Notes under the pieces: generated by a model
The model's database searches: none
What the model was told of the DNA's origin: nothing
What the model saw: the letters and a program-made list of their open reading frames with translations, nothing else
From: a virus
DNA length: 21,694 bases
Strand: one strand, 5' to 3'
Virus record (IMG/VR): IMGVR_UViG_3300009512_000102
Coordinates: 1-21,694 of that record
Program-made: the position numbers and the translations under genes
Part shown: positions 15,214-21,694 of the stretch, in pieces
Numbering within the stretch: the first letter of the stretch is position 1
How the letters are laid out: each line of letters opens with the position of its first letter

Positions 15214-16980
15214 ATGAACATAAATTATTTATTAAACGATTGGGCCTGGAGAGTTAACGACGGAATGCCAGACCCGAAAAATAGAAACCATCTTGATTTA
15301 CTTGAGGCAGCTCTTAGAGACCACAAGTATTCTGAAGAATTTATTGAAGCGTATATATCTGAAATTGAATTTCCATCTCCACAAGCTCTAGCGAAATACA
15401 AAGCTAAACACAAGATGAGAAAAACCACTAAAGTAAAAATAGCTGGTGATGAAACAACTGTTGGAGATGCTGAAAAAGCAGCTAAGTCAGGTGAAGAAGA
15501 CAAGCCGAAAGCCGATAATAAAAAGACAGTAGAAGCAAGCGCAGCAGCAAATAAAGATCTTTCAGATAAAATTGGTTCAGAAAAAGATCCAAAGAAAAAA
15601 GAATCTCTAAAAGCTGAATATCTTTCTAACCAACTTGATAACATGTTGAAAGTAAGTTCTATAGAATCAGGAGCTGGTAGATACAATATGAATACAGATG
15701 ATGTAAAATCATATAGAGGTTATTTAGAAAAAATAATAAATGACCCTGATGAGCCTGGAAAATCTATACAAAAGTTAAAAGATGACCAAGTAAAAAAGCA
15801 CGGTCCAATAACTGAAGATGATATAGATAAATTTATCGAAGAGTTAGAAGCAGGTTCAAAATCAGATGATCCTAATTTTGAAAAAAACATAAAGAGCAAG
15901 GTTAGAGGTAAAGGCGGACCAGGTTCAAGTTTTACTACTGGAGAAGCAGGAGCTCAAAGATACAGAAATGTAATACGAGCTTATTTAGAAACAGGCGGTA
16001 TAAGTCCTATAACTGGTAAAGTAGTTCCATTTAGTGAATGTCAGTTAGACCATATCGTATCGCTAGGAAACGAAGGAAAGGATGAGCCAAGCAATTGGAT
16101 GTTTATGGAAGAGCGGTTCAATCAATTCAAAGGAAAGAAGACTGATGAAGATATTAGAGCTGATTTAGAAGAAGATCATTATTTAACAGATGCTGAAATT
16201 GCTGCAGGTACTGAGAGTGACAAAGTTGAAACTGCACTTAAAAAAGAAGATAGAGCATTTTGGAAAAACAAATTTGCAAAATCAAAAGGCAGAGAGTTGG
16301 AGGCAGGTGTTACCAAAGCTCAAATTGAAAAAATGAGCAAGCCTGAATTGGCAAATTTAGTATATGGTTATAATTTAGCCAACCCTGAAAATGAATTATC
16401 AAGGTACCCAACACCTAAGGTAGATTATAAAGGAAAGAAATTATCATTTGCTAGAGGCGAAGGCAAAAATAGTCCTATAAAACCAGTTGAAGGGGACCCA
16501 AGTACTTATGGTCTATCTTTAGATGATGATAAGAAGGTAAATCAAGATAAATCTATGGATTACGAAGCTTCAATAAAAGCATTTAAAGACAATAGAGGTT
16601 CTGGTGGTAGAGAAAAGAACAAAGAACAATATATTGAAACAATAATGGAAGCAGGCCTTGCATCTGATTCAAAAGAGCTAGATGAAAGATTTAATAGTAT
16701 GCTTGAAGAACATAGAACTGGCCAGTTAAAGCGAAGTAGTGCTATAAAAGCCAAGATAAAAGCAGCAAAAGAAGCACCTGGATCTATGGAGCAGAAAAGA
16801 AAGATTGTAACTAAATCAATGAAGGAATTCATAAGACAGAATCCAGAACCATTTGGTGCAAAATCTGACAGTTTTATTAAAGACGCGAAAAAACGAAAGA
16901 AATCTGCTGAGTGGAAAGAATGGAAAACTTCTATGGACAACTACAGATATAAACAGTGGTCAAAGTTTGGAGAAAAATAA
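15214..16980 (+). CDS. HNH-domain protein with helical N-terminal module
   Basis: The 588-residue, highly charged protein has an HNH nuclease core at residues 240-310: the strand GISPITGKVVPFSECQ, then L278-D279-H280-I281, N294 and N303 (ERFNQFKGKK). The His and two Asn are in HNH order, but the zinc-binding CxxC pairs of many HNH proteins are absent. Residues 1-55 (NYLLNDWAWRVNDGMPD...) form a compact helical module I recall at the front of other large marine phage proteins. Residues 60-230 and 330-588 are Lys/Glu-rich and probably coiled or disordered. The late-type promoter suggests a role late in infection, such as DNA processing, or a virion protein, rather than host takeover. A homing endonuclease is less likely given the size. 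The next gene starts right after its stop. Confidence 0.72.
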   Translation: MNINYLLNDWAWRVNDGMPDPKNRNHLDLLEAALRDHKYSEEFIEAYISEIEFPSPQALAKYKAKHKMRKTTKVKIAGDETTVGDAEKAAKSGEEDKPKADNKKTVEASAAANKDLSDKIGSEKDPKKKESLKAEYLSNQLDNMLKVSSIESGAGRYNMNTDDVKSYRGYLEKIINDPDEPGKSIQKLKDDQVKKHGPITEDDIDKFIEELEAGSKSDDPNFEKNIKSKVRGKGGPGSSFTTGEAGAQRYRNVIRAYLETGGISPITGKVVPFSECQLDHIVSLGNEGKDEPSNWMFMEERFNQFKGKKTDEDIRADLEEDHYLTDAEIAAGTESDKVETALKKEDRAFWKNKFAKSKGRELEAGVTKAQIEKMSKPELANLVYGYNLANPENELSRYPTPKVDYKGKKLSFARGEGKNSPIKPVEGDPSTYGLSLDDDKKVNQDKSMDYEASIKAFKDNRGSGGREKNKEQYIETIMEAGLASDSKELDERFNSMLEEHRTGQLKRSSAIKAKIKAAKEAPGSMEQKRKIVTKSMKEFIRQNPEPFGAKSDSFIKDAKKRKKSAEWKEWKTSMDNYRYKQWSKFGEK

Positions 16981-19894: not shown

Positions 19895-21025
19895 ATGGCA
19901 AAGGCAAAGAAAAACAAACGAGATGAATTGGCGTCAGTATTGGCTGACTCTCTAAATAAACAGTTCAAAGGTATGAAAGTTGCATACTTCTTAGATGGAG
20001 CAGAAGATACACCGACTGATTTAACTGAGTGGATAAGCACTGGTTCATCGATTCTTGACCTTGCTATTTCTAATAGGCCAAATGGTGGTTTACCTGTAGG
20101 TAGAATTACAGAAATTACTGGAATGGAAGCCTCCGGTAAATCACTATTAGCGGCTCACTTACTTGCAAACACTCAGAAAATGGGAGGTCTTGCTGTATAC
20201 ATCGATACTGAAAATGCTATGAATGAAGAGTTCTTAACAGCAATAGGTATGGATATGACTAAGATGCTTTATATTCAACTTGAAACGGTAGAAGATATTT
20301 TTGAGGTAATTGAAAATATAATTCTTAAAGTTAAAGAAAGTGATAAAAACAGACTTGTATCAATAGCAGTAGATTCTGTTGCGGCAGCAACTACTAAAGT
20401 TGAACAGGCTCAGGATTATGACAAAGAAGGGTGGGCAACGTCAAAGGCAATAGTACTATCAAAAGGTATGAGGAAAATTACTCAGCTAATAGGTAGAGAA
20501 AGAGTTGCTCTGTTCTTTACAAATCAATTAAGACAAAAGCTAGGAGTCATGTTTGGCGACCCTTGGACGACAAGTGGTGGTAAGGCAATTCAGTTCCACG
20601 CTTCATGCAGATTGAGATTAAAGGCAGCAGGACAGATCAAAGCTAAAATTGCAGGTAAAGAACAAGTAATAGGTATTAAGACTAAATGCGTTGTTGTAAA
20701 AAATAGAATGGGTCCTCCATTACGCACAGCAGAATTCAACATCTTTTTCGAATCAGGGATAGATGACACAGGATCTTGGCTGCAGGTAATGAAAGACTAT
20801 AGTTTAGTGAAACAAGGAGGGTCATGGTATACTTATACTTGCGACGTTACAGGTGAAGACATCAAGTTTTTATCTAAAGACTTCGAAGAAAAGATACTTT
20901 CTCATCCTGAAAGAAAAGAAAGTTTATATAAAAAGATTTGTGAAACAATGGTTATGTCATATAAAACTGATGGTATTGGTATCGATGATATCGAAATCGG
21001 AAATGATGATGTACCAATAGGATAA
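19895..21025 (+). CDS. uvsX: Recombinase UvsX (RecA-like)
   Basis: UvsX forms filaments on single-stranded DNA and carries out strand invasion for recombination-dependent replication and repair. The 376 residues include Walker A (GMEASGKS, 76-83), the catalytic glutamate E106 in YIDTENAM, Walker B ending at D160-S161 (VSIAVDS), and the DNA-binding loop region TNQLRQKLGVMFGDPW with TSGGKAIQFH (209-235). The C-terminus is acidic (GIDDIEIGNDD). Length and motif spacing are as in T4 UvsX (391 residues). It is the last gene of the H1-gp32-uvsX unit. No clear terminator follows; the next feature is the tRNA-like RNA 8 bases on. Confidence 0.95.
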   Translation: MAKAKKNKRDELASVLADSLNKQFKGMKVAYFLDGAEDTPTDLTEWISTGSSILDLAISNRPNGGLPVGRITEITGMEASGKSLLAAHLLANTQKMGGLAVYIDTENAMNEEFLTAIGMDMTKMLYIQLETVEDIFEVIENIILKVKESDKNRLVSIAVDSVAAATTKVEQAQDYDKEGWATSKAIVLSKGMRKITQLIGRERVALFFTNQLRQKLGVMFGDPWTTSGGKAIQFHASCRLRLKAAGQIKAKIAGKEQVIGIKTKCVVVKNRMGPPLRTAEFNIFFESGIDDTGSWLQVMKDYSLVKQGGSWYTYTCDVTGEDIKFLSKDFEEKILSHPERKESLYKKICETMVMSYKTDGIGIDDIEIGNDDVPIG

Positions 21026-21032
21026 CAACAAT

Positions 21033-21227
21033 GCTGTGTGTGGTGGAATAATTGAAAAGCTCAAAAGGCCTGGTAGATTTTGGAAAACACCCTTTTGCGG
21101 AAGGTAACTGAAGCGGTAACACCGACTCAATGTTCATAAAGAGTACATGAACATAATGGCTTTTTTTAAGTTTTTAGCCAATTAAGTAGTACTTGAAAAA
21201 CTGTGGGTTCGAATCCCACCGCACAGC
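21033..21227 (+). ncRNA. tRNA-like RNA with normal acceptor and T arm but enlarged centre
   Basis: The ends fit a tRNA. Bases 21034-21040 pair with 21220-21226 as a 7-bp acceptor stem (one G-U), extended by G21033-C21227. The T arm is perfect: GTGGG, loop TTCGAAT, CCCAC (21203-21219). T8 (21041), then G-T-G-G and A14 follow correctly, and the D region recalls tRNA-Leu (GTGGAAT ... TGGTAGA), but with about 21 extra bases inside the loop. The centre is about 160 bases where a tRNA has 40-60. It holds hairpins CAAAAGG/CCTTTTG (21062, 21091), an 8-bp ATGTTCAT/ATGAACAT (21130-21154) and AGTTTTT/AAAAACT (21169-21202). I cannot find a normal anticodon arm. An intron-bearing tRNA, a decayed tRNA or a new tRNA-ended RNA are all open. 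No CCA is encoded. Confidence 0.55.
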
Positions 21228-21228
21228 C

Positions 21229-21242
21229 TTTGTTGTTATATT
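21229..21242 (+). promoter_or_regulatory. Weak promoter motif B5, secreted protein gene
   Basis: TTGTTGTTATATT lies just after the tRNA-like RNA and 25 bases before the ATG at 21268. It shares the downstream box (TTATATT at 21236-21242) with the other type B motifs. The matching upstream position falls inside the T arm and does not fit the consensus well. Confidence 0.4.
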
Positions 21243-21267: not shown

Positions 21268-21694
21268 ATGAAAAAGTATTTAGTAGTATTATTAGTTTCG
21301 CTTGGACTACAAACACAAGCACAAATCAACTATTGTGATTCAGTATCATATACTGTTGTACAAGGAACTCAAACATTAACTACAATAGGAGATGCATCGC
21401 CATTTATTAACATGGTAGATTCTATAGTATGGAGTTGGCAAGCATGCAACGCAACAATGTGCTATTCAGGTTATGGTGATACAGCAACATTTACAAATAT
21501 ACTACCAACAGATACAGTTAAAGTATGTTATGATGCATACATATATTATGACTCATCAATTTATATTTGCTCACAATGTGATTCATTAGTATATGATGCA
21601 AATTCATATTCATGGGTGTTAATGAATATGGGTAATCCAACTTCAATAAATGAATTAGAATTTACTTGGGAAGATGATGGTATCATATATGATA
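21268..21694 (+). CDS. Secreted hypothetical protein, Bacteroidetes style (3' partial)
   Basis: An open frame of 142 codons runs off the window end, so its length is unknown. Residues 1-18 form a clear signal peptide (MKKYLVVLLVSLGLQTQA), with cleavage before QIN. The mature part is Asp/Ser/Tyr/Thr-rich with cysteines in NYCD, QACNA, MCYSG, VCYD and CSQCD, suggesting an exported disulfide-rich beta protein. Near the visible end, NPTSINELEFTWEDDGIIYD resembles the linker of many Bacteroidetes secreted proteins, in which SINE(L) precedes the C-terminal sorting region. I do not know its function. A role at the host surface, such as adhesion or superinfection blocking, is only a guess. RBS is AAAAAGAAA-type, with no strong Shine-Dalgarno sequence. 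Confidence 0.7.
   Translation, partial: MKKYLVVLLVSLGLQTQAQINYCDSVSYTVVQGTQTLTTIGDASPFINMVDSIVWSWQACNATMCYSGYGDTATFTNILPTDTVKVCYDAYIYYDSSIYICSQCDSLVYDANSYSWVLMNMGNPTSINELEFTWEDDGIIYD

Follow-up and report, generated by a model that had tools for sequence, protein, structure and literature searches.

The recA locus and the RNA element behind it

The window, by which we mean the whole stretch of DNA analysed here, is a 21,694-base virus record that encodes a tail sheath, a tail tube, part of a DNA polymerase, an endonuclease, a single-strand DNA-binding protein and a UvsX/RecA-like recombinase. Directly 3′ of the recombinase gene (recA) lies an RNA element with tRNA-like ends (Table 1), and the first paired base of the element, 21033, stands 8 bases beyond the end of the recA stop codon (21023-21025). 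A scan of the region for promoters and terminators gave nothing usable and no convincing promoter of the element's own. The gene that follows (21269-21694) varies among close relatives, encoding either a secreted-looking protein or small proteins starting MNDLIIKAIIAKA or MDMYYLARVKV, and the right side of the element is therefore a point of gene exchange. Elsewhere in the window, positions 15214-16980 encode a 588-aa protein that has, by eye, an HNH-like stretch (QLDHIVSLGNEG) and no PHROG match; it adjoins a DNA-polymerase-like protein of only 335 aa.

Table 1. Features of the recA locus and of the RNA element in the window
Feature	Coordinates	Strand	Remarks
recA, RecA/UvsX-like recombinase	19895..21025	+	PHROG 97, UvsX-like recombinase, E 2.6e-69
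Outer closing stem, 5′ strand	21022..21031	+	ATAACAACAA; 10 predicted pairs with 21230-21239; contains the recA stop codon
tRNA-ended RNA element	21033-21227	+	Directly 3′ of recA
Acceptor-like stem, 5′ strand	21033..21040	+	21034-21040 are positions 1-7; 21033 is position -1
U8, position 9, D stem 5′ strand, start of D loop (GAAT)	21041..21049	+	U8 at 21041; stem 21043-21045
D-loop insert	21050..21081	+	Hairpin and A-rich loop (CAAAA); an insert in 26/26 members
D-loop GG (positions 18-19) and D stem 3′ strand	21082..21090	+	3′ strand 21088-21090; 26/26 members
Anticodon-arm-like hairpin	21091..21104	+	CCTTT-TGCG-GAAGG, without an anticodon; from the fold
Hairpin V	21111..21128	+	Loop TAACA; two-sided changes in 6/6 pairs; 71.8% of cells paired
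Hairpin A	21130..21154	+	21130-21137 with 21147-21154; loop AAAGAGTAC
Pseudoknot helix 1, 5′ strand	21141..21146	+	GAGTAC, within the hairpin A loop; partner strand 21189-21194
Hairpin B	21158..21179	+	GGCT 21158-21161 with AGCC 21176-21179
Pseudoknot helix 2, 5′ strand	21169..21175	+	AGTTTTT, within the hairpin B loop; partner strand 21196-21202
Pseudoknot helix 1, 3′ strand	21189..21194	+	GTACTT; covariation test
Pseudoknot helix 2, 3′ strand	21196..21202	+	AAAAACT, abutting the T stem; covariation test
T arm	21203..21219	+	GTGGG-TTCGAAT-CCCAC; perfect 5-bp stem; 100% of cells paired
Acceptor-like stem, 3′ strand, and position 73	21220..21227	+	No encoded CCA
Outer closing stem, 3′ strand	21230..21239	+	TTGTTGTTAT; predicted pairing with 21022-21031

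The element, which some marine phages carry, looks like a member of a conserved, uncatalogued RNA family. Searches with the recombinases of the window and of contig L023, together with a pattern for the 3′ part and a looser pattern, found it in 35 viral contigs in addition to the window; once identical elements had been dropped, 26 distinct sequences remained to be counted. Members span 193-264 bases from position 1 to 72. Twenty-four of them directly follow recA and the other two (L184, L190) follow an ATP-dependent DNA ligase, named by reading the sequence and from matches to phage ligases; these two ligase-linked copies are a second genomic place of the element. A tRNA-Glu gene lies within about 8 bases downstream of the element in L108, L109 and L189, and about 240 bases downstream in L023. 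The original prediction had proposed a covariance model built from relatives as a check, and such a model (R1), run on 47 whole records, recovered all 30 member records at E 3.2e-17 or better and matched none of the 17 non-member records below E 0.26, with extra weak matches in two member records (E 0.057 and 0.094).

Wider searches did not enlarge the family. Over 89 sources, the best R1 match beyond the four included members was L178 (E 0.099), which on reading is an ordinary tRNA's T arm, and a pattern scan of genome contigs gave 14 matches, none of which was the element on reading, so that no bacterial copy was seen. A blastn comparison with 50,697 phage records, in which the elements of the window, L109, L010 and L184 served as queries, found no homologue; the weak matches that were followed up (L225-L228) are tRNAs, a tRNA-like RNA that has no anticodon, a T arm that goes uncalled, or chance. 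Among 66 ligase loci the element was present at two, both already in the family (L260 is a tRNA-Thr), and the first ligase search had matched nothing but its query contig. A plain tRNA in the place of the element, in which the original prediction would have seen the sign that the window holds a decayed copy, was found in none of the relatives. One of the rejected blastn matches, L227:380-435 (Bacillus phage vB_BsuS_PJN02), lies in a tRNA array and combines a perfect T arm with a 3′ end like that of an acceptor, and ARAGORN does not call it as a tRNA.

In a tree of 97 recombinase proteins, from which identical proteins and two rows cut by contig ends were left out, the element is confined to a single clade of 22 rows (support 93/97, which is below the programme's star mark) and is present in 21 of them. 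Its presence requires 2 changes on this tree, against 19.2 when the labels are shuffled. The exception within the clade is L133 (a 147-kb contig, the same as L024), where the best R1 match has an E of 0.41. Such a distribution seems to reflect inheritance under selection and not scattered insertions; within one phage clade, the element has persisted behind recA mainly through vertical descent.

Two other RNA candidates occupy the place after recA in sister phages. The first (L158:4102-4260, CTGATACCAA ... ACTAGAAAATAC ... CTAATAGC) also occurs in L151, L155, L156, L160, L161, L175, L176, L177, L054, L037, L039, L040 and L174; it has no Rfam match, and by eye it may form the long-range pairings GGTGACC/GGTCACC and TATAGC/GCTATA, a structure that is unproven since an alifold of 14 rows gave little (-0.61). 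The second (L153:3929-4060, AAAGGCCACCTTC-CGTGGTG ... GTTAAAAGTCCTCAC ... GAGCCTTTT) also occurs in L033, L035, L039, L040, L154, L157, L171 and L174, has an alifold energy of -18.84 over 7 rows and is followed by a tRNA-Ala in L039 and L040.

The tRNA-like elbow and the double-pseudoknot core

The original prediction started from eight base pairs at the ends, a flawless T arm and a tRNA-Leu-like D start, and all three are present on direct reading: 21034-21040 and 21220-21226 form seven acceptor pairs, G21033-C21227 an eighth, and the D start reads GTG GAAT. Its judgement that such ends are beyond chance is borne out across the family. In the acceptor, 168 of 182 cells are paired, with two-sided changes in six of the seven pairs, and 1000 shuffles peak at 129 paired cells. 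The marks of the tRNA elbow, namely U8, G13A14A15, a D stem with the D-loop GG and the T loop TTCGAA followed by T or C, occur in all 26 members, so that every elbow residue of a decoding tRNA (U8, A14, G18G19 and the T loop) is kept. The D stem covaries as the acceptor does, and all 78 of its cells are paired, a count favoured by construction because the 3′ strand was located by complementarity; the counts for the 5′ half were made by script, since the 20-row alignment A1 misaligns the D arm. The D arm that flanks the insert in L109 and L189 reads GTGGAAT..insert..TGGTAGACAC, like the D arm of a tRNA-Leu.

Two regions vary, the D-loop insert and the hairpin after the D stem. The insert is 32-65 nt long and forms in most members a two-part hairpin with the loop AUAUAAAA. 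The hairpin after the D stem corrects the claim of the original prediction that a 160-base centre shows no anticodon arm: an arm-like hairpin does exist at 21091-21104, and its loop is a tetraloop that has no anticodon. The tetraloop is TGCG in the window, TACG in L003 and L104 and TAAG in L004, and in other members the hairpin is longer and in two parts. A small anticodon-less tRNA-like RNA at L228:360-431 (Tenacibaculum phage Larrie, a cultured phage with a flavobacterium host), reported by ARAGORN as a tRNA with a two-base anticodon, has an arm, CCTTC-TAAG-GGAGG, that resembles the tetraloop arm of L004.

Ahead of the T stem stands a core of two interleaved pseudoknots, with its strands in the order A, 1, A′, B, 2, B′, 1′, 2′. 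We examined the named pseudoknotted structure, comprising 34 pairs, in a 26-row alignment of the 3′ part. Standard pairs fill 93.0% of the 883 cells (77.6% when shuffled), 22 of the pairs show two-sided changes, and the covariation score of 0.430 (shuffled, 0.147) was reached in none of 500 shuffles. Relatedness of the sequences inflates covariation judged by shuffling, and this is corrected in part by a slid control in which partners moved by 1-3 columns pair in only 33.5-53.5% of cells. Pairing reaches 100% of cells both in hairpin A, with two-sided changes in 6/6 tested pairs, and in helix 1, with such changes in 4/6 pairs; helix 2 is paired in 98.9%, with compensatory changes in L023, L108, L109 and L189, and hairpin B in 84.5%, or 88.5% once realigned. 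Helix 1 is GAGTAC/GTACTT in the window, GACTAT/ATAGTT in L023 and GATTAC/GTAATC in L108, and at the second locus GTCTAC/GTAGAT in L184 and GCAAAC/GTTTGT in L190; helix 2 occurs as AGTTTTT/AAAAACT, AGTGTTT/AAACACT and AGTACTT/AAGTACT.

Both pseudoknot helices had been written down before L108, L109, L184, L189 and L190 were fetched, and in each of these five helix 1 has 6/6 pairs. L108 and L109 were found via RecA alone, and the pattern that found L184, L189 and L190 fixed parts of helix 2 and nothing in helix 1. Folded as a single sequence, the window element is mildly unusual (z -1.84), a modest value since the folding programme is unable to form the two pseudoknots. Over model R1 the 3′ core measures 128-134 bases and so hardly changes in length, while the insert and the next hairpin are variable, from which it follows that the constrained part is the pseudoknot core plus the elbow. 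The element is an RNA with a tRNA elbow, a D-loop insert and two interleaved pseudoknots, conserved and covarying in a family of 26, and the suggestion of the original prediction that it might be a different tRNA-ended phage RNA is the one that is supported.

Comparison with known RNA classes

Could the long centre nevertheless be excised, as an intron or inserted domain, so that a decoding tRNA-Leu(UAA) remains in which hairpin B serves as the anticodon arm? Some signs point that way, because TAAG lies, by reading, within the hairpin B loop in 20/26 members and because ARAGORN, with introns allowed and stringency lowered to 70%, proposes an intron-containing tRNA-Leu (taa) in the window, L003, L012, L094 and L119. 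At that stringency, however, the isotypes it reports are mutually inconsistent, and at normal stringency the intron-aware check suggested by the original prediction called only 5/26 members, with the disagreeing anticodons aaa, aaa, acg, tag and agt, and left the window uncalled. The triplet in hairpin B is GAA or AAA instead of TAA in six members (L002, L007, L008, L009, L097, L109), the loop is 10-14 nt rather than 7, helix 2 takes up the AGT of this loop in 26/26, and a free 7-base anticodon loop occurs in none of the 26; moreover, the D loop has an insert as well. The would-be intron is also the best conserved, covarying part. The proposal of a tRNA with a very small intron is not supported, none of the tests made shows the long centre to be a spliced intron, and we regard an interrupted tRNA as very improbable. 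A Leu(UAA) anticodon loop may have left the TAAG of hairpin B as a relic, and the ancestral anticodon arm may have become either hairpin B or the hairpin at 21091-21104.

A shortened or unusual tmRNA serving ribosome rescue would likewise have tRNA ends around pseudoknots, and the T arm does give weak matches to the tmRNA model (14.3 bits in the window; 3/16 records). These matches span only model positions 347-363. The original prediction disfavoured a tmRNA for want of the G3-U70 pair, and in this it was right: the pair is found in 0/26 members, ARAGORN in tmRNA mode called 0/26 at normal stringency, and none of the 16 member records exceeded the cut-off of the tmRNA model (three T-arm scraps), which 9/14 control genomes passed. 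The short frame ATG GCT ... TAA that it had noted is present in the window; the tag-like frame is found only there (1/26), although six of the 26 have an ATG at that place. A tag-coding tmRNA is refuted, and a shortened or unusual tmRNA in general seems to us even less probable than an interrupted tRNA.

A ribozyme or other self-processing RNA built on a tRNA chassis would account for unpaired residues that are invariant in 26/26 members, A residues before helix 1 among them, and for the first pair of helix 1, which is G-U in 23/26 and G-C in three. Read from the structure, the strand order is hairpin A, helix 1, hairpin B, which may correspond to P3-P7-P8 of the group I core. However, the element has no P4-P6 domain, with only three bases (AAA in the window) between the 5′ strand of hairpin A and helix 1; the group I model matched 0/16 member records at E up to 1 but 8/14 control genomes, and the elements of the window and L109 match no Rfam ribozyme family. 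We therefore hold a ribozyme to be improbable, if less so than the tRNA and tmRNA readings.

The last of these readings, a decayed tRNA or chance resemblance, could appeal to the acceptor defects in seven members and to the silence of the standard tools, as default ARAGORN and Rfam at the gathering score found nothing at the window element. The covariation and the 26/26 invariants refute it, and we give it hardly any credence. At the gathering score Rfam 15 gave no family for the window, and L010, L023, L104, L108 and L109 matched only through separate tRNAs; at E up to 10 the window element yielded only the tmRNA T-arm match and chance matches. The tRNA model, run like the tmRNA and group I models on 16 of the 30 member records, placed 0/16 elements over its cut-off (best at most 18.9 bits against a gathering score of 29), and the three records that did exceed it owe this to separate tRNA-Glu genes. 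An intron-bearing tRNA, a tmRNA, a group I intron and a decayed tRNA were all rejected on these grounds.

What, then, does the element resemble? It shares with tRNA-Leu (class II, RF00005) the acceptor/T stack, U8, A14, the D stem, the D-loop GG, the T loop TTCGAA and a leucine-like D arm; it differs in its D-loop insert of about 30 nt or more, in having no consistent anticodon and in the double-pseudoknot core, over 100 bases long, that precedes the T stem. A tRNA-Leu is the likely ancestor. Like tmRNA (RF00023), it has tRNA-like ends around pseudoknots and no anticodon but, unlike it, neither a conserved tag frame nor G3-U70; it differs from tmRNA also in having a D stem, in being shorter and in its pseudoknot arrangement. 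With the group I intron (RF00028) it may share the strand order P3, P7, P8, but it has neither P4-P6 nor a match to the model. Among other ornate RNAs, GOLLD and ROOL are phage and prophage RNAs of unknown function, often near tRNA islands, and many GOLLD RNAs exceed 800 nt (PMC12286853); the element, also a phage RNA, is far smaller and has no Rfam match. The raiA RNA is a compact, highly conserved bacterial RNA of unknown function, with other helices and no tRNA acceptor or T arm in the description consulted (PMC11751092), and to it, too, no Rfam match links the element. A search of the open-access literature by titles and abstract openings, a scope that takes in few subscription papers, found no paper on such an RNA.

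Possible processing and roles of the element

The acceptor is perfect in 19/26 members and imperfect in seven (L002, L004, L005, L094, L096, L099, L104), position 73 varies (A in 8, C in 4, G in 4, T in 10), and CCA is encoded in 0/26, as is also the case for the tRNA-Glu beside L108. The paired ends reach further out than the original prediction described: beyond the acceptor, 7-12 more pairs can form an outer helix in 17/26 members, most often with the recA stop codon inside it, in a scan that allowed at most 6 unpaired bases per side; in 300 trials with base-shuffled flanks the observed length was matched in at most 7.3% of trials for each of the 17, although the flanks are AT-rich and simple, so that single cases are weak. 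The helix is short or absent in nine, including the three with an adjoining tRNA-Glu; in one of the nine, L190, a 7-pair helix (GATAACC/GGTTATC) lies, by reading, just beyond the limits of the scan. In 17/26 the helix would cover the usual RNase P site, and in L004, L005, L096 and L099 its formation leaves a 3-4 base bulge in the 5′ strand of the acceptor. Together, the outer helix and the bulges indicate that the ends are joined in most members and do not always make a chargeable acceptor.

A cis-acting role, the main rival of the explanation favoured below, is kept in view by the length of the closing stem and by the constant position behind recA. On this reading the element would be a 3′-UTR or intergenic element of the recA operon that is never released, its closing stem starting at the stop codon, and it might shield the end of the recA mRNA from exonucleases or uncouple recA from the next gene. 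The direct succession to recA in 24/26 members, the inclusion of the stop codon in most outer stems, the want of a convincing promoter and the presence of other structured RNA candidates at the same place in sister phages all agree with this. However, two members follow a ligase gene instead, the outer stem fails in nine by the scan, a tRNA gene comes immediately after the element in L108, L109 and L189, and the full elbow is kept though a simple roadblock would have no need of it. We consider a cis-acting element possible but doubtful.

The explanation we favour, at roughly even chances, is that the family is a new structured phage RNA on a tRNA-Leu chassis which does not decode and which is probably a tRNA mimic cut from the recA transcript. 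We infer its transcription, processing and function as follows. The element would be transcribed together with recA and cut out at its paired ends via tRNA-type or stalk-type processing; the released RNA would be a stable mimic presenting its pseudoknot core, the putative active part, to a protein or ribosome site that recognises the tRNA elbow. The fold would in this way keep what readers of tRNA shape use, the elbow and the acceptor/T stack, and drop what decoding needs. Against a mimic stand the seven imperfect acceptors, the variable position 73 and the outer helix over the RNase P site in 17/26, and these features fit a cis-acting element at least as well. A bolder reading, possible but doubtful, is a dedicated non-decoding RNA machine derived from tRNA-Leu, whose elbow would dock on a host factor that reads tRNA shape and whose core would block or redirect that factor; such a factor might be an enzyme of tRNA processing, a site on the ribosome or a defence protein directed against tRNAs.

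To our knowledge, RNAs that are tRNA-shaped without being tRNAs are few, and those that are known have revealed how factors of the cell are captured through tRNA shape. Here a phage clade keeps, beside its recombinase gene, an element in which the elbow is intact, the anticodon is gone and a double pseudoknot covaries cleanly. If it is indeed an RNA machine derived from tRNA-Leu, it would be a functional RNA class without a known counterpart. Its size of about 200 bases puts direct synthesis, probing and structure determination within reach. The other structured RNA candidates 3′ of recA in related phages suggest, in addition, an unexplored layer of phage RNA biology.
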